From NCBI RefSeq assembly GCF_000802965.1, contig NZ_JSAK01000018.1:62001-126000 (forward strand): a stretch of 64,000 nucleotides of DNA, in the 5' to 3' direction. The DNA is from Pseudomonas fluorescens (lineage in GTDB: Bacteria; Pseudomonadota; Gammaproteobacteria; Pseudomonadales; Pseudomonadaceae). The notes under the pieces were generated by a model that did no database searches, was not told where the DNA came from, and saw only the letters and a list, made by a program, of their open reading frames with translations. Shown here piece after piece: positions 42,202 to 48,841 of this stretch. A program made the translations under genes and the position numbers. Each line of letters opens with the position of its first letter. The stretch's first letter is position 1.

Positions 42202-42840
42202 TCAATCGTCCGAGGTCTTGTGCTTGTATTCGCACAGGTCTTCGATCCGGCAACTGCCGCAGCGAGGCTTGCGAGCGAGGCAGACGTAGCGCCCGTGGAG
42301 GATCAACCAGTGATGGGAGTCGAGGAGGTATTCCTTGGGCACGAATTTCATCAGTTTTTTCTCCACCTCAACCACATTCTTGCCAGGCGCAATGCCGGTG
42401 CGGTTGCTGACCCGGAAAATATGGGTGTCTACGGCCATGGTCAGCTGACGGAACGCGGTATTGAGTACAACGTTGGCGGTTTTACGGCCTACGCCGGGCA
42501 GCGCCTCGAGCTCTTCGCGGGTCTGCGGTACTTCGCCTGCGTGGCGTTCCACCAGCAAGCGACAGGTCTCGATCACGTTTTTTGCTTTGCTGTTGAACAG
42601 GCCGATGGTCTTGATGTATTCCGACAAACCCTCGACGCCCAGTGCGTGAATCGCCGCCGGGGTATTGGCTACCGGGAACAGTTTTGCAGTGGCCTTGTTG
42701 ACGCCGACATCGGTCGATTGCGCCGAAAGAATTACAGCAATCAGCAACTCGAACGGTGAGGAATAGGCCAGTTCGGTCTTCGGTTCCGGGTTGTCTTCAT
42801 GCAGCCGGCGAAAAATTTCCAGACGTTTTGCGGCATTCAT
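42202..42840 (-). CDS. nth: Endonuclease III (DNA glycosylase/AP lyase)
   Basis: A 212-residue base-excision repair enzyme removing oxidised pyrimidines. The helix-hairpin-helix with its catalytic lysine is LEALPGVGRKTANVVL, the catalytic Asp is in MAVDTHIFRVSNR, and the C-terminal [4Fe-4S] cluster is formed by CLARKPRCGSCRIEDLC. It lies directly downstream of rnfE (25-base gap) and is probably co-transcribed with rnf, as in E. coli rsx-nth. Confidence 0.97.
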   Translation of the reverse strand: MNAAKRLEIFRRLHEDNPEPKTELAYSSPFELLIAVILSAQSTDVGVNKATAKLFPVANTPAAIHALGVEGLSEYIKTIGLFNSKAKNVIETCRLLVERHAGEVPQTREELEALPGVGRKTANVVLNTAFRQLTMAVDTHIFRVSNRTGIAPGKNVVEVEKKLMKFVPKEYLLDSHHWLILHGRYVCLARKPRCGSCRIEDLCEYKHKTSDD

Positions 42841-42865: not shown

Positions 42866-43456
42866 TCAGTGTGAAAGAGGTGTCGGGCGGTGCCACGCTT
42901 GCCATGCGGCGATCAGCAACCCCAACAGAATGAAACCGCCAGGGGTAAGCGTGGCCAGGCGTAAACCACCGTCAGCGGTCAAAACCCAGCCCTGCCAGCC
43001 GGCCTGTGTCATACCGGCCAGCCACGGTAGATGAGTGGCGATCGTCCCGCTGCCGACGAGTTCGCGCAGCAGCCCCATGCTGACCAACACCAAGCCGAAG
43101 AGGCCACTCAACCGCAGACGATCTCGCCACGGTCTCTGGAAATAACCAGTGTGTTCCAGGACGACGCACTGCAAGGCGATCAAGCCTGCATAAATCCCCA
43201 CGTGCTGATGCCATTGCAGCGACCAGACTTGCGCACCCAACTCCGCGCAAGTGGTCAATGTGGCAGCCAGCAGCACGCTGGTCAGCAAGTGCGTCGTCGG
43301 ATGCATTTGCGGCCTCAATGCGCCCATGCTAAGGCCAAAACAACTGATCACGAGCATGAACATCAGCCACAGACCGAGAGCAGGCGTCAGCGAACTGGTG
43401 GCGCCAATCAGGGGTGCAAGCATCAGCGTGTTCTGCAGAGTCGATGATTTATTCAT
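42866..43456 (-). CDS. rnfE: Rnf electron transport complex subunit E
   Basis: A 196-residue inner-membrane protein with about six helices, homologous to RnfA and NqrD. The N-terminus MNKSSTLQNTLMLAPLIGAT fits the family, though the protein is shorter than the usual 220-230 residues. It overlaps the end of rnfG by eight bases. In Rnf complexes RnfA and RnfE form the membrane core coordinating a [2Fe-2S] cluster; the Cys positions CAELGAQ and CVVLEHTG are compatible. Start ATG 43456 is chosen over an upstream extension inside rnfG. Confidence 0.85.
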   Translation of the reverse strand: MNKSSTLQNTLMLAPLIGATSSLTPALGLWLMFMLVISCFGLSMGALRPQMHPTTHLLTSVLLAATLTTCAELGAQVWSLQWHQHVGIYAGLIALQCVVLEHTGYFQRPWRDRLRLSGLFGLVLVSMGLLRELVGSGTIATHLPWLAGMTQAGWQGWVLTADGGLRLATLTPGGFILLGLLIAAWQAWHRPTPLSH

Positions 43457-44060
43457 GGGAAGAACTTCCGAGCAGATGTTGCCGGTGTTCATCGAAGTAG
43501 CGCAACGCTTCATGGAGGGCGTTAATGACCGCCCTGGAAGTAATCGTCGCGCCGGCGATCTGGTCGAATTGCCCCTGATCTTTTCTCAGCGCCCAGCCAC
43601 TGTCGCCGGGTTCCGACCGTGATTTGCCGGAAAACACCTGAAGCCACGCATTGGGCCAGTCGGCGATCCGCGCGCCCAGGCCCGGAGTCTCCGATTGCTT
43701 GAGGGTTTTGACGCCGACCAGCCTGCCGTTGACATCAATGGCGATCAGCAAGTCAATCGTGCCGGCATAGCCCAGGGTCTGGCTGCGCAGCAACACCGCG
43801 CAAGGCTGGCTGGCTTTGGTCGCGCGGTAGCCTGTTATCAAGGTGCTGTTGGTCAACTCGGTGTTTTCGAGGGTGAGAGGCTGTTCCAGCGGTTGATTGT
43901 CATAGCTGTCGGGTGGCAACAAGTCGAGCAGGTTACGGCTGTCAATCAACCGTTGTTCAGCTGCAATACGGGGGGCGCTGCTGTACTGGACGTAATAGCT
44001 CAGACCAATGCCAACGGTGGTCAGAACTATCAGGATCGCAACGCTCGATGCGCGATTCAT
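43449..44060 (-). CDS. rnfG: Rnf electron transport complex subunit G (FMN-binding)
   Basis: A 203-residue protein with one N-terminal membrane helix (SSVAILIVLTTVGIGLSYYV) and a periplasmic FMN-binding domain. The flavinylation motif IAGATITSRAVINA carries the threonine that is covalently attached to FMN. The start ATG 44060 overlaps the rnfD stop by four bases (ATGA), so the genes are tightly coupled. Confidence 0.92.
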   Translation of the reverse strand: MNRASSVAILIVLTTVGIGLSYYVQYSSAPRIAAEQRLIDSRNLLDLLPPDSYDNQPLEQPLTLENTELTNSTLITGYRATKASQPCAVLLRSQTLGYAGTIDLLIAIDVNGRLVGVKTLKQSETPGLGARIADWPNAWLQVFSGKSRSEPGDSGWALRKDQGQFDQIAGATITSRAVINALHEALRYFDEHRQHLLGSSSHE

Positions 44061-45043
44061 GGCGCAGTTCGCTCCTGTCTTGATGCGGCAAACCGCTCCA
44101 GCGCCGGTACGCAAAGGTTCATGAGGAGTACGGCAAACGCCACGCCATCCGGGTAGCCGCCCCATGTGCGAATCACATACGTGAGCAGGCCGACGCCAAC
44201 GCCGAACAACAGTCGTGCCCCGGGGCTTTTCGCGCCGGACACCGGTTCCGTCACGATGAAAAACGCCCCCAGCATGCTCGCGCCAGTGAGCAGGTGAAAC
44301 AGCGGTGAGCCATGTGAATCGGAGCCCGAGCCGTTCCAGCACAACAAACTGCTGATGAACAGGCTGGCGAGCATGCCGACCGGTGCATGCCAGCTGAACA
44401 CTCGCTGTCGCAGAAGAAATGCACCACCGGCGAGAAAGGCCAGGTTCACCCATTCCATGCCTCGGCCACCGAAGTGACCAAACGCTAAATTTGTGGAGAA
44501 TAATTCATCCATGGTCAGGCTTTTGTTGATCCGCAGGCTGTCCAGTGCCGTCGCCTGGACCCAGGCATCCGGGGGCTGTTCCAGGCCGAATACCTGCTGC
44601 AAGCCGCCCAGCAGATTCATGCCATGGGGCGCCGGCCAGTGCGTCATCTGCTGGGGAAAGGTCACCATTACCAAGGCGAAGCCAAGCATCGCCGGGTTGA
44701 ACGGGTTGCCGCCGACGCCGCCATACAGATGCTTGCCGAACAGCATTGCGCAAGCGGCAGCACAGACCGTCAGCCACCATGGGCAGTAGGGCGGCAAGGC
44801 CAGGGCCAGCAGCGTCGCACTGACCAAGGCACTGCCGTCGCTCAAAGTGGTTTTGAGCGGGCGTCTGCGCAACTGCAATACAGCCGCTTCAACCGCCAAC
44901 GCACTAAAACTTGCCAACAGCAGATTGAATAAAACCCCCCAGCCATACAGCCAGAACAGCACAAGCAACCCCGGCAGCGTGGCTAGCAACACCCGCTTCA
45001 TGGCCTGCTGGAGGCGCTCGTCAACCGCTTCAAGGGGAGGCAT
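44057..45043 (-). CDS. rnfD: Rnf electron transport complex subunit D
   Basis: A 328-residue polytopic membrane protein of the RnfD/NqrB family. About eight to ten helices are seen with [19 protein letters not shown] and [15 protein letters not shown] signatures. The putative flavinylation site reads [11 protein letters not shown], in the place of the family's SGAT-like motif. It follows rnfB directly, with rnfC missing from between them. The start is ambiguous: ATG 45043 has the best site spacing (AGGTGG); ATG 45049 is two codons earlier. Either way it overlaps the rnfB end. Confidence 0.88.
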
Positions 45044-46040
45044 AGGCATCCACCTGACGTTCAGCATCGCTGAGTGCACGCTCCAGGATTTCGATCTGTT
45101 CGGCGGGCGCTTCGTTGGCTTGAGCTTTCTTCAGTTCGGCGCGGCGCATGGCCAACTGGATCTTCGCCCGATTCAAATCGGCATTCTTTGCCGGAGCCGC
45201 AACGGGTGCCGAGACGGGTGGAGCGGTGCTTTCGAGCTGCGCCAGGGCTTTTTCGGCGGCCTCGAACTGTTGTTGCAGGACAATCAGTTGCGACTGCTGT
45301 TCGAAGGTCGGCGGATGGCCGAAGGCTTTGAGCGATTTGTTCAATTGCGCCCGGCTCATCGCCAAATCGATCTTGGCTTTTTTCAACGCCGCGTCGGCAT
45401 TGGCGGCTTTCTGCGCGTGGACCCGCTCGAGGGCGGCCTGCACCGGGTCGACCGACACTTCACGTGGCTGGGCTGCGCGTTGCGCCCGGGCCTGGCGATC
45501 GGCGGCTTTCTGTTGTTCTTCCCGTTGCAGGCGGGCGTTGCGCTGTTCGAAACGGCGGCGAGCGTGATTGCGTTTGGCGGCACGGGCTCGTTGCTCCTCA
45601 ACACTGAACGCCAGACCGCCGACAATCGGCAGCACCGTAGCCATCGGCAGCGGCCGCATTTCGATGCAGTCCACGGGGCAGGGCGCCACGCAGAGGTCGC
45701 AACCGGTGCATTCGTCGATGATGACCGTATGCATCAATTTGGCCGCACCGATGATGGCGTCAACCGGGCAGGCCTGAATGCATTTGGTGCAGCCGATGCA
45801 CTCGGCTTCTCGGATGTAGGCGATCTGCGCCGGAGCCGAACCTCTACTCGCATCCAGTTCCAGCACCGGTACTTTAAGCAGCTCGGCCAAGGCTTTGATG
45901 GTTTCGCTACCGCCCGGCGGACACTTGTTGATGGGCTCACCGTTGACGATGCCTTCGGCGTAGGGCTTGCATCCGGGATGGCCGCACTTGCCGCATTGAG
46001 TCTGCGGAAGGAGGGCGTCGATGCGTTGAATCAGACTCAT
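45030..46040 (-). CDS. rnfB: RnfB-type ferredoxin with missing anchor and long repeated tail
   Basis: A 336-residue iron-sulfur protein. The first cluster is at C16, C19, C24, C40 ([13 protein letters not shown]), and two ferredoxin [4Fe-4S] sites follow at C81-C91 and C111-C121. Unlike ordinary RnfB it has no N-terminal membrane helix: it starts directly with [17 protein letters not shown]. After residue 145 it continues in a charged helical tail of about 190 residues, with two repeats, [17 protein letters not shown] (220-236) and [17 protein letters not shown] (290-306), resembling the C-terminal repeats of RnfC. It overlaps rnfA by four bases. No rnfC follows. Confidence 0.88.
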
Positions 46041-46606
46041 GTTTTGATCAGTCCACTGAATCCGAGAAAAGCCACTGCAATCAGGCCGGCACCGATCAAG
46101 TCGATCGGCAGGCCGCGAAAGGGCAGGGGGACATCATTATCGAGTGTGCGTTGGCGCAGGTCGTTAAACAGACTCAGCACCAGCCAGAAGCCCAGCCCGA
46201 CACCCAGGCTCAGGGCTGTGGCGTGGAAGAGGCCGTTGTCGTCCTGAGCGTTGAACAATGTCACGCCCAGGATGCCGGCATTGGCCGCCATCAGCAGCCA
46301 CAGGCCGTCGAATGAAAGCTTGGGCAGCAACCGCGCAAGCAGCTTGAGCAGAGGGGCGATCAACAGCACGCTCAGCGGTAGAAACACGAACAGGCGCAGG
46401 GCCGTCATATCCAGCGGCACAAGCAGCCAGTGATAAAACGCGTAGCCGAGCAAACCGACAATCAACATCAGGCACGTCGTTGCAATGCCCAGCGCATGGA
46501 CTTGCCGGCGTTCGCTGCCCAACAAAGGATCGACGCCCAGCGGCCAATGCAACACGAGGTTGTTGATCAGGGCAGTGCTGATGAGTGTCAGAAGCAGTTC
46601 GGTCAT
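46037..46606 (-). CDS. rnfA: Rnf electron transport complex subunit A
   Basis: A 189-residue inner-membrane protein with six helices, related to Nqr[21 protein letters not shown] is the family N-terminus. It is slightly shorter than typical RnfA (193). The cysteine normally found near the N-terminus for the [2Fe-2S] site (NNFVLxxFLGLCPF) is absent: here the sequence reads [14 protein letters not shown]. It heads the operon rnfA-B-D-G-E-nth. The longer open frame into the upstream REP is not real. Confidence 0.85.
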
Positions 46607-46635
46607 GATCGTCCATATCCGATGCTGGATATCCT

Positions 46636-46715
46636 CTGTAGGAGCTGCCGCAGGCTGCGATCTTTTGATCTTGAAAGCGGAATCAAAAGATCGCAGCCTT
46701 CGGCAGCTTCTACAG
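46636..46715. repeat. REP inverted pair, family C
   Basis: TGTAGGAGCTGCCGCAGGCT ... and the AAAGATCGCAGCCTTCGGCA complement, 30 bases upstream of rnfA, in its promoter region. Confidence 0.9.
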
Positions 46716-46738
46716 AGATAGTATGGGCCAGACATGAA

Positions 46739-46773
46739 AATCCCACAGTCGCGCGAGGCACGACTGTGGGATC
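46739..46773 (-). terminator. Terminator of metG
   Basis: ATCCCACAGTCG, loop CGCGAGGCA, CGACTGTGGGAT. The A tract on the left side becomes the T tract of the leftward transcript, 17 bases past the metG stop. Confidence 0.75.
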
Positions 46774-46789
46774 TGTTTGCCGCAATCCC

Positions 46790-48841
46790 TTACTTGATCC
46801 GCTGACCAGGCTTGGCGCCGCTGTCCGGGCTGAGCAGGTAGATTTCTTCACCGCCAGGGCCGGCCGCCATCACCATGCCCTCGGAAATGCCGAACTTCAT
46901 TTTCCGTGGCTTGAGGTTGGCGATCATCATGGTCAGGCGACCATCGAGCTTGGACGGATCCGGGTAAGCGCTCTTGATGCCGGAGAACACGTTGCGTTGC
47001 TCGTCACCGATATCCAGGGTCAGGCGCAGCAGCTTGTCGGCACCTTCCACGTGTTCGGCCTTGACGATCAGGGCCACGCGCAAGTCGACCGCAGCAAAGG
47101 TATCGAACTCGATTTCCGGCGACAGCGGATCCTTGGCCAGCTCGCCGTTGCCGGCAGGTGCTGCGTCGCCGGTGTCGGTCTGGCTGGCGGTCAGGTCTTC
47201 TTTCGAAGCGTCGGTCATGGCTTGCACTTTTACTGGATCGATACGGGTCATCAGCGGCTTGAACTCGTTCAACTGATGGTTGGCGAGCAAGGTCGCGTGG
47301 TCGTTCCAGGTCAGCGGCGCGACGTTGAGGAACGCCTCGGCATCGGCGGCCAGCAGCGGCAGCACCGGTTTGAGGAAGATCACCAGTTGGCGGAACAGAT
47401 TGACGCCGGTGGCGCAGATCGCCTGGACTTCATCCTGCTTGCCTTCCTGTTTGTTCAACGACCACGGAGCCTTGTCAGCGATCCAGGCGTTGGCGCGGTC
47501 GGCCAGGCCCATGATCTCGCGCATGGCACGGGCGAAGTCGCGGGCTTCATAGGCGTCGGCAATGCCAGGCGCGGCGGCCAGGAAGGCTTCGGTCAGTTCC
47601 GGCGCGGCGTTGGTGTCGACCATCACACCGGCATTGCCTTTGTTGATGAAACCGGCACAACGGCTGGCGATGTTGACGACTTTGCCGACCAGGTCGGAGT
47701 TGACCTTCTGCACGAAGTCTTCGAGGTTCAGGTCGAGGTCATCGACGCCACGGCTCAGTTTGGCCGCGTAGTAGTAGCGCAGGTATTCCGGCGACAGGTG
47801 ATCCAGGTAGGTCCGCGCCTTGATGAAGGTGCCACGGGACTTGGACATTTTCTGGCCATTGACGGTCAGGTAGCCGTGTACGTTGATGCCGGTCGGCTTG
47901 CGATAACCCGCACCTTCGAGCATCGCAGGCCAGAACAGGGCGTGGAAGTTGACGATGTCCTTGCCGATGAAATGGTACAGCTCGGCGGTGGAGTCCTTGC
48001 CCCAGAACGCGTCGAAGTCCAACTCCGGCGTACGGTCGCAGAGGTTCTTGAAGCTGGCCATGTAGCCGATCGGCGCGTCCAGCCACACGTAGAAATATTT
48101 GCCCGGCTCGTCGGGAATCTCGAAACCGAAGTACGGTGCATCGCGGGAGATGTCCCACTGTTGCAGGCCTGCGTCCAGCCATTCGGCAATCTTGTTCGCC
48201 ACGGCGTCTTGCAGAGTGCCGCTGCGGGTCCAGGTTTGCAGCATTTCCTGGAAGTCCGGCAACTTGAAGAAGAAGTGCTGGGAATCCTTGAGCACCGGAG
48301 TGGCGCCGGAAATCGCAGACTTTGGATCTTTCAGGTCGGTCGGGGCGTAGGTCGCGCCGCATTTTTCGCAGTTGTCGCCGTACTGGTCTTCAGTGCCGCA
48401 TTTCGGGCAAGTGCCCTTGATGAAGCGGTCGGCCAGGAACATTTTCTTTTCCGGGTCGAAGTACTGAGTGATCGAGCGCTGGGCGATGTGCCCGGCGTCG
48501 CGCAGCTTCAGGTAGATCTGGCTCGACAGCTCACGGTTTTCTTCGGCGTGAGTGGAGTGGAAGTTGTCGAAGTCCACCAGGAACTCGGCAAAGTCGGCGC
48601 TGTGTTCAGCCTGGACGTTGGCGATCAGTTGTTCCGGGGTGATGCCTTCTTTTTCCGCGCGCAGCATGATCGCCGAACCGTGGGCGTCGTCGGCGCAGAC
48701 ATAAATGCATTGGTTGCCGCGGTGCTTCTGGAAGCGCACCCACATATCGGTCTGGATGTATTCCAGCATGTGGCCAAGATGGATCGAACCATTGGCATAG
48801 GGCAGGGCGCTGGTGACGAGGATCTTGCGTGGCTCGGACAT
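46790..48841 (-). CDS. metG: Methionyl-tRNA synthetase
   Basis: A 683-residue class I synthetase charging initiator and elongator tRNA-Met. The HIGH-type motif is [19 protein letters not shown], the zinc knuckle [17 protein letters not shown], and the KMSKS loop [13 protein letters not shown]. The last 110 residues ([20 protein letters not shown]) form the C-terminal dimerisation/tRNA-binding EMAP-like domain. Length is standard. It diverges from apbC. Confidence 0.98.

Follow-up and report, generated by a model that had tools for sequence, protein, structure and literature searches.

The window that we analyzed is a 64,000-nucleotide stretch of Pseudomonas fluorescens DNA (RefSeq assembly GCF_000802965.1, contig NZ_JSAK01000018.1, positions 62,001 to 126,000), and it contains genes for the electron transport complex Rnf, but not for its subunit RnfC. 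We propose, with a probability of roughly 60%, that the complex was dismantled in this lineage and left two autonomous parts: a membrane module with flavins only (RnfADGE), and a soluble RnfB that carries the C-terminal tail of RnfC.

In the canonical complex, electrons are described as moving from RnfB to a [2Fe-2S] cluster of RnfA and RnfE, then to the flavin mononucleotide (FMN) of RnfG, the FMN of RnfD, the riboflavin of RnfD, RnfC, and finally nicotinamide adenine dinucleotide (NAD) (passages of PMC12174285 and PMC9588780). Here both the entry (the cluster) and the exit (RnfC) are gone and the flavin sites of RnfD and RnfG remain, so the known mechanism rules out a ferredoxin:NAD pump. 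Genes such as these are easily misread as encoding that pump, which the RnfADGE set cannot form by this mechanism.

The operon lacks rnfC, and none was found elsewhere in the genome

The relevant features of the window are as follows.

46037..46606 (-): rnfA, 189 amino acids; RnfA/NqrE-type subunit with neither [2Fe-2S] ligand cysteine (profile match, and alignment to solved RnfA chains)
45030..46040 (-): rnfB, 336 amino acids; soluble RnfB with all 12 cluster cysteines and no N-terminal membrane helix
45033..45602 (-): 3' part of rnfB, encoding the RnfC-derived tail (residues ~147-336; from homology against shuffles, repeat positions, and AlphaFold)
44057..45079 (-): rnfD, 340 amino acids; flavin threonine present (VQATALD), both RnfC-gripping arms gone
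43449..44060 (-): rnfG, 203 amino acids; periplasmic FMN-binding subunit with its AGATIT attachment motif intact
42866..43456 (-): rnfE, 196 amino acids (an alternative longer open reading frame extends to 43513); first ligand cysteine gone, second present
42202..42840 (-): nth, endonuclease III; conserved neighbor downstream of the rnf genes
46790..48841 (-): metG; conserved neighbor upstream of rnfA, which we used as a species marker

An earlier reading of this DNA from the sequence alone (the sequence-only reading) gave the order rnfA-B-D-G-E-nth with tight overlaps and with rnfC missing between rnfB and rnfD. The coordinates of the open reading frames bear this out: metG is followed on the minus strand by rnfA-rnfB-rnfD-rnfG-rnfE-nth, with overlaps between the rnf genes, and rnfB adjoins rnfD directly. 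RnfB (TIGR01944, 217 bits), RnfD (TIGR01946, 367 bits), and RnfG (TIGR01947, 152 bits) are above the NCBIfam cut-offs. RnfA (TIGR01943, 110 bits versus 229) and RnfE (TIGR01948, 70 bits versus 213) are below theirs. The sole domain match in RnfD is PF03116, and no NAD-binding domain (PF00175) is fused to it.

We also searched the whole genome (6.4 Mb in 64 contigs, 100% complete) with the rnfC profile. There were just three matches, and the best of these, at 57 bits against a cut-off of 246, is NuoF; the genome's match to the RnfC_N domain is a pyruvate carboxylase B/oxaloacetate decarboxylase alpha protein. No rnfC above the cut-off turned up, and on this basis we reject a copy elsewhere in the genome. 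A strain-specific deletion or an assembly gap is ruled out as well, because the same arrangement without rnfC is found across many Pseudomonas loci. A search for a near-identical plasmid copy gave no match.

The membrane core has lost three of four cluster ligands and kept its flavin sites

According to passages of a 2025 review (PMC12174285), the intramembrane [2Fe-2S] cluster is held by four cysteines, one from each inner half-helix of RnfA and RnfE, and moves electrons through the membrane, from RnfB to RnfG. The sequence-only reading had noted that RnfA lacks the usual cysteine near its N terminus, which understated the change. In the window's RnfA, FLGLCPF of E. coli is replaced by PLGVDPL and TTNCAVLG by AANAGILG, and the first of the two cysteines in RnfE is also gone, so just one of the four ligands is retained. 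With three of four ligands missing, electrons can no longer take the known route from RnfB to RnfG.

These losses go together with the absence of RnfC. By alignment, neither RnfA cysteine is present in any of 40 RnfC-less loci, while both are present in 14/14 RnfC-bearing loci. The first RnfE cysteine is lost in all 40 RnfC-less loci and the second is kept in 38 of them; none of the four ligands is missing from the 14 RnfC-bearing loci, among which is E. coli. RnfC and the RnfA cysteines are likewise present or absent together in every rnfA row of a further set of loci (in L203/L099, the contig stops short of the rnfC position), and both are absent from 81/81 named or window loci.

RnfD has changed where RnfC would attach. 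In the complex from C. tetanomorphum, the N- and C-terminal arms of RnfD bind RnfC (passages of PMC9588780). We found neither arm motif in 48 RnfC-less rows, the window's RnfD among those without them, versus each motif in 23/26 RnfC-bearing rows (the three misses are visible near-variants).

The residues to which flavins would be attached are retained. In RnfG, this residue is present in all 41 RnfC-less rows (38 threonine, three serine), and in RnfD it is threonine in all RnfC-less rows except for one serine. Both are threonine in the window and throughout the 81 named or window loci.

RnfB has lost its anchor and carries the tail of RnfC

RnfC-less RnfB proteins have a median of 14 residues before the QCGxCG motif, versus 45-47, including a hydrophobic helix, in the 14 RnfC-bearing loci. 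The highest 19-residue hydropathy mean in the window's RnfB is 1.5 and lies within the ferredoxin domain. Across 51 RnfC-less RnfB proteins, the median peak is 1.48, and the six that slightly exceed 1.6 do so in or adjoining the cluster-binding part. Thus, the N-terminal membrane anchor is absent, as the sequence-only reading had it. The cluster cysteines are unaffected: all 12 are present in RnfB from 31/31 loci with both RnfB and RnfADGE and from 20/20 loci with RnfB alone (these counts leave out the partial locus L042), and also in 81/81 named or window loci.

The same reading described a helical tail of about 190 residues with two AKI-LAM-RA repeats like those of RnfC, and this proved correct. 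The repeats are at residues 222-231 and 292-301. The tail matches the RnfC tails from 12/12 Pseudomonas loci (best 55% over 92 amino acids, 75 bits), and the best of 200 shuffled tails reached 26 bits, which rules out a chance likeness of Ala/Lys-rich sequences. The segment directly after the ferredoxin domain aligns to that of Pseudomonas RnfC with a score of 114 (the maximum of 500 shuffles was 82), so RnfB carries the RnfC tail from its start and not just a repeat. The RnfC of E. coli gave no match to the RnfB tail, and its post-ferredoxin segment scored 68, within the range of shuffles, so the homology is to the RnfC of Pseudomonas.

AlphaFold predicts that the tail forms one long helix (147-189) and two helical hairpins (199-239/246-272 and 284-308/313-334), with an AKI-LAM-RA repeat in the first helix of each hairpin. 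The predicted local distance difference test (pLDDT) scores in ten-residue blocks of the tail are mostly 72-95, with 52-66 at the joints. For all of RnfB, the mean pLDDT is 64.2 and the predicted template modeling score is 0.28, from an alignment of 12 sequences that is too shallow for the ferredoxin part; a Foldseek search with this shallow-alignment model found nothing at an E-value of 0.001 or lower.

Tail-bearing RnfB is also seen farther away. One genome from another family of the order (L225) encodes a tail-bearing RnfB without RnfA, and more distant genomes (L227, L228, L231, L233, and L234) encode RnfB with shorter tails of similar appearance (the start of RnfB in L227 is ambiguous and hence so is its anchor). 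None of these six has a match to RnfA at 1e-20, and just L225 and L231 have a weak match to the RnfD profile. Given these proteins, the fusion of RnfB to the RnfC tail may be older, or may have arisen more than once.

The RnfC-less core is widespread in Pseudomonas

We classified 149 genomes of the genus from their matches (RnfC above 500 bits, RnfD, and a strong RnfB; adjacency was verified in the fetched loci only). By these matches, 19 genomes encode complete Rnf, 78 encode RnfB and RnfADGE without RnfC (AB-DGE), 11 encode RnfADGE without RnfB (A-DGE), 33 encode RnfB alone (B-only), and eight encode none of these (G003, G024, G065, G091, G117, G142, G144, and G146 have neither RnfB nor RnfADGE by these searches). 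The RnfC-less core is therefore present in 89/149 of the sampled genomes and is not specific to this strain. One genome with an AB-DGE locus and a separate complete Rnf (G022) was scored as AB-DGE, and one in which both rnfD and ApbE are split (G034) was scored as having both. Different fetched loci have complete Rnf, AB-DGE, A-DGE, or B alone at the same site between metG and nth.

In addition, we examined the best 80 of the 329 named loci that were found, and all 80 are titled Pseudomonas. They include P. fluorescens, P. mandelii, P. frederiksbergensis, P. brassicacearum, and P. jessenii, as well as two labeled P. putida and one labeled P. syringae. In all 81 loci (these and the window), A, B, D, G, E, and nth are present and C is absent, and the five rnf genes are single open frames. 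Some named loci are from the same genomes as numbered loci (e.g., L114 and L016), so the two sets are not additive.

Among 79 genomes of the family, the cluster-less type of RnfA is found in three of 19 genera (g1, g223, and g233), and one case (G438) was detected only via its RnfB. Among 274 genomes of the class, the top score, 287 bits, is that of the window's own RnfA, followed by 150 bits; in the five best others among the matches listed, both cysteines are present, although this search could miss a cluster-less RnfA that has diverged strongly and scores below the threshold, as happened with G438.

The trees show one origin of the core, and RnfB and RnfADGE behave as separate units

After removing duplicate loci, we built quick trees. 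The RnfC-less rows form one side of a branch in the trees of RnfD (47/73 rows; Shimodaira-Hasegawa-like approximate likelihood ratio test [SH-aLRT] support 99.8), RnfA (47/77 rows; SH-aLRT 100), and the ferredoxin domain of RnfB (64/91 rows, B-only loci included; SH-aLRT 97.9). Repeated origins of the RnfC-less core are ruled out by these three trees, which show one. In the RnfD tree (which leaves out L086-L088 and the partial L042), the RnfC-less group is placed with the Rnf of other Pseudomonadaceae (68 rows, support 99), apart from E. coli.

The history within the genus is less simple. On a tree of metG (70 rows, without L045), the state changes 10 times for RnfADGE, three times for RnfB, and four times for RnfC, and well-supported branches force at least five changes of the B-only label. 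RnfC-bearing and RnfC-less species are mixed within one clade of this tree, so the rnf locus may also have moved between species.

Across Pseudomonas, RnfB and RnfADGE are each retained or lost without regard to the other and behave as separate units. Without the 19 complete genomes, 78 genomes have both, 11 have RnfADGE only, 33 have RnfB only, and eight have neither. If the two were independent, 76.0 genomes with both would be expected (p = 0.30, from counts that ignore relatedness).

This independence bears on another explanation, in which RnfB with its tail binds RnfD where RnfC normally would and passes electrons from soluble ferredoxin directly to the riboflavin of RnfD, then its FMN, and then RnfG. 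The RnfA-RnfE cluster would not be needed, as the usual return path would be the only path. The tail of RnfB follows a domain with two [4Fe-4S] clusters, just as it does in RnfC; the clusters of canonical RnfC connect to the RnfD riboflavin, and the C-terminal helix of Azotobacter vinelandii RnfC touches RnfB (both from passages of PMC12174285); and where RnfB and RnfADGE are both present, they share one overlapping operon. Nevertheless, we consider such docking unlikely. Both of the RnfD arms that hold RnfC are gone. RnfB retains its long extension in all 20 fetched B-only loci (138-265 residues past the ferredoxin domain, versus 24-41 in RnfC-bearing loci). Also, RnfADGE persists without RnfB in nine fetched loci, of which one (L050, from G134) has no recognized RnfE.

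The sequence-only reading had suggested a reduced and altered Rnf complex, perhaps with another electron donor or a soluble RnfB. The reduction (of RnfC, the cluster ligands, and the arms) and the soluble RnfB with its RnfC-like tail both hold. Neither result that was named there as refuting (an intact rnfC elsewhere in the genome, or no similarity between the RnfB tail and RnfC) was found. A single altered complex with another donor to RnfB is not supported as it was stated, because the cluster route is interrupted and RnfB and RnfADGE come and go separately.

Selection and co-occurring genes

For the 81 RnfC-less loci, the median pairwise ratio of nonsynonymous to synonymous substitution rates (dN/dS) is 0.17 for rnfA, 0.10 for rnfB, 0.11 for rnfD, 0.17 for rnfG, and 0.23 for rnfE. 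The corresponding values for 12 RnfC-bearing loci are 0.05, 0.07, 0.14, 0.21, and 0.11. In absolute terms, RnfD and RnfG are as constrained as in RnfC-bearing loci; RnfA and RnfE are markedly relaxed, yet still under purifying selection.

Could the operon simply be non-functional and on its way out, so that its various forms are stages of gene loss? The many changes of RnfADGE and of the B-only label on the metG tree fit this idea, as does the relaxation of RnfA and RnfE relative to RnfC-bearing relatives. Also, one locus (G034:C1:5643397-5645338) has rnfD in two frames, RnfB as two overlapping pieces in different frames, and a split ApbE; these broken genes reflect either ongoing decay or sequencing error. 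Against decay, all five genes are intact frames in every named or window locus, with median dN/dS of 0.10-0.23, the set is retained in three genera, and both the flavin sites and ApbE are kept. We judge plain decay to be quite improbable.

The flavin transferase ApbE is encoded in all 108 genomes with RnfD, versus 9/41 without it. If genomes with NQR or complete Rnf are excluded, these proportions are 86/86 and 7/39.

The E. coli homologue of Rnf, together with RseC, has been assigned the reduction of SoxR (passages of PMC12174285), so we asked if the window's genes could still encode a SoxR-reducing (Rsx) complex that dispenses with RnfC and the cluster. SoxR is found in 67/78 AB-DGE genomes and in 11/11 A-DGE genomes, versus 18/33 B-only genomes. 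It is also found in six of the eight genomes with neither RnfB nor RnfADGE, but in only 4/19 genomes with complete Rnf. Over five independent pairs, RnfD and SoxR changed in the same direction 2.2 times on average and in opposite directions 0.3 times (median p = 0.5), which is too few pairs to decide. A role in reducing SoxR strikes us as very unlikely.

What the two parts might do

Under the two-part reading, the Rnf complex was taken apart once, in the Pseudomonadaceae as far as sampled. All of rnfC would have been lost save for its C-terminal tail, which would have become fused to an RnfB without a membrane helix, and the membrane core would have shed the RnfA-RnfE cluster and the RnfC-holding arms of RnfD. 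What remains in the membrane would be a cluster-free flavin module in which RnfA and RnfE probably serve as a scaffold, and ApbE would keep RnfD (riboflavin and covalent FMN) and RnfG (covalent FMN, on the periplasmic side) loaded.

By analogy to other partial Rnf/NQR sets, for which one-way flow has been proposed (passages of PMC8238504), the best remaining use for such a module would be a one-way flavin relay between the cytoplasmic side of RnfD and the periplasm. Electrons would most likely pass from a donor at the RnfD side (a quinol or a soluble carrier) to RnfG and then to a periplasmic acceptor. RnfB would act as a soluble polyferredoxin, with its RnfC-derived helical tail docking to a cytoplasmic partner. 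A further suggestion is a tentative one, and we would not give it even odds: RnfADGE may be an iron-sulfur-free conduit that carries electrons one way from the membrane or cytosol to the periplasm and derives from a six-subunit pump, and the chimeric RnfB may be an independent electron carrier that, in many species, has persisted beyond the complex itself.

Several points weigh against the two-part reading. AB-DGE is the commonest state and its genes overlap, so RnfB and RnfADGE may cooperate where both exist, and the test of their independence takes no account of relatedness. The quick trees came with warnings, of long branches for RnfA and of few columns for RnfB. The background dN/dS is lower in the RnfC-less set than in the RnfC-bearing set (0.05 versus 0.09 for metG, 0.02 versus 0.07 for nth), and relative to these genes from the same genomes, all five rnf genes are relaxed; this and the relaxation of RnfA and RnfE mean that slow decay fits too. 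Once relatedness is removed, the association of ApbE with RnfD comes down to five independent pairs, which agree in direction 3.4 times on average and are never opposite, and it is no longer significant (median sign test p = 0.25). In nearly all RnfC-less rows, RnfE keeps its second cysteine, which may still serve some metal or thiol role. Finally, the direction of electron flow is argued from analogy.

Relation to known systems

There is precedent for partial Rnf/NQR sets and for curated RnfB families with extensions, and the role of ApbE is known. Our searches of openly licensed papers turned up neither an account of a Pseudomonas Rnf that lacks both RnfC and the cluster nor one of an RnfB that carries a captured RnfC tail.

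The closest systems are RnfABCDGE/RsxABCDGE from E. coli, A. vinelandii, and RnfC-bearing Pseudomonas, which share with the window's set the gene order (except for rnfC), the flavin sites of RnfD and RnfG, and the cluster cysteines of RnfB. The downstream nth is common to the window, E. coli, and the RnfC-bearing Pseudomonas loci. The window's set differs in that RnfC, the RnfB anchor, the full set of [2Fe-2S] ligands, and the RnfD arms are missing and in that RnfB bears the RnfC tail. The NQR/RNF-like systems described in passages of PMC8238504 are likewise partial sets, centered on a flavinylated subunit and one that resembles RnfD. In these systems, which are reported mainly from Actinobacteria and candidate phyla, the RnfD-like subunit is fused to an NAD-binding domain, while the window's set keeps RnfA and RnfE and its RnfD has no such domain. 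NQR (NqrABCDEF) has a membrane core that is homologous to RnfADGE, but unlike the window's set it keeps the NqrD-E cluster and has NqrA and NqrF (passages of PMC12174285). Among curated families, the best NCBIfam match of the window's RnfB by E-value (residues 2-269) is NF005415/PRK06991, "electron transport complex subunit RsxB," an RnfB with a long C-terminal extension; the score of 244 bits is below the cut-off of 281.

This lineage offers a natural dissection of Rnf/NQR: are the RnfA-RnfE cluster and RnfC needed for electron transfer between RnfD and RnfG? It also bears on the role of the long C-terminal helix of RnfC, whose function in A. vinelandii is described as not yet understood in passages of the 2025 review (PMC12174285), and it raises the question of why RnfB survives alone beside nth.

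Other observations

RnfC scores above its cut-off in 25 of the 149 genomes: 20 have the complete type and seven have the RnfC of a separate mini-locus (two have both). RnfC matches of ~370-390 bits are also seen in G021, G057, G072, G103, G432, G478, and G494. Gene neighbors were read in L086, L087, and L088 only, where genes for RnfC-like and RnfD-like proteins adjoin each other, with an ApbE gene nearby in L087. By alignment, the RnfD of the mini-locus lacks the usual flavin threonine.

A promoter scan upstream of rnfA gave no sigma-70-like site. The spacer between metG and rnfA (46607-46789) contains a terminator-like hairpin 3' of metG, followed by a long inverted repeat (our own label for it is "REP-like"), which ends about 25 bases 5' of rnfA.

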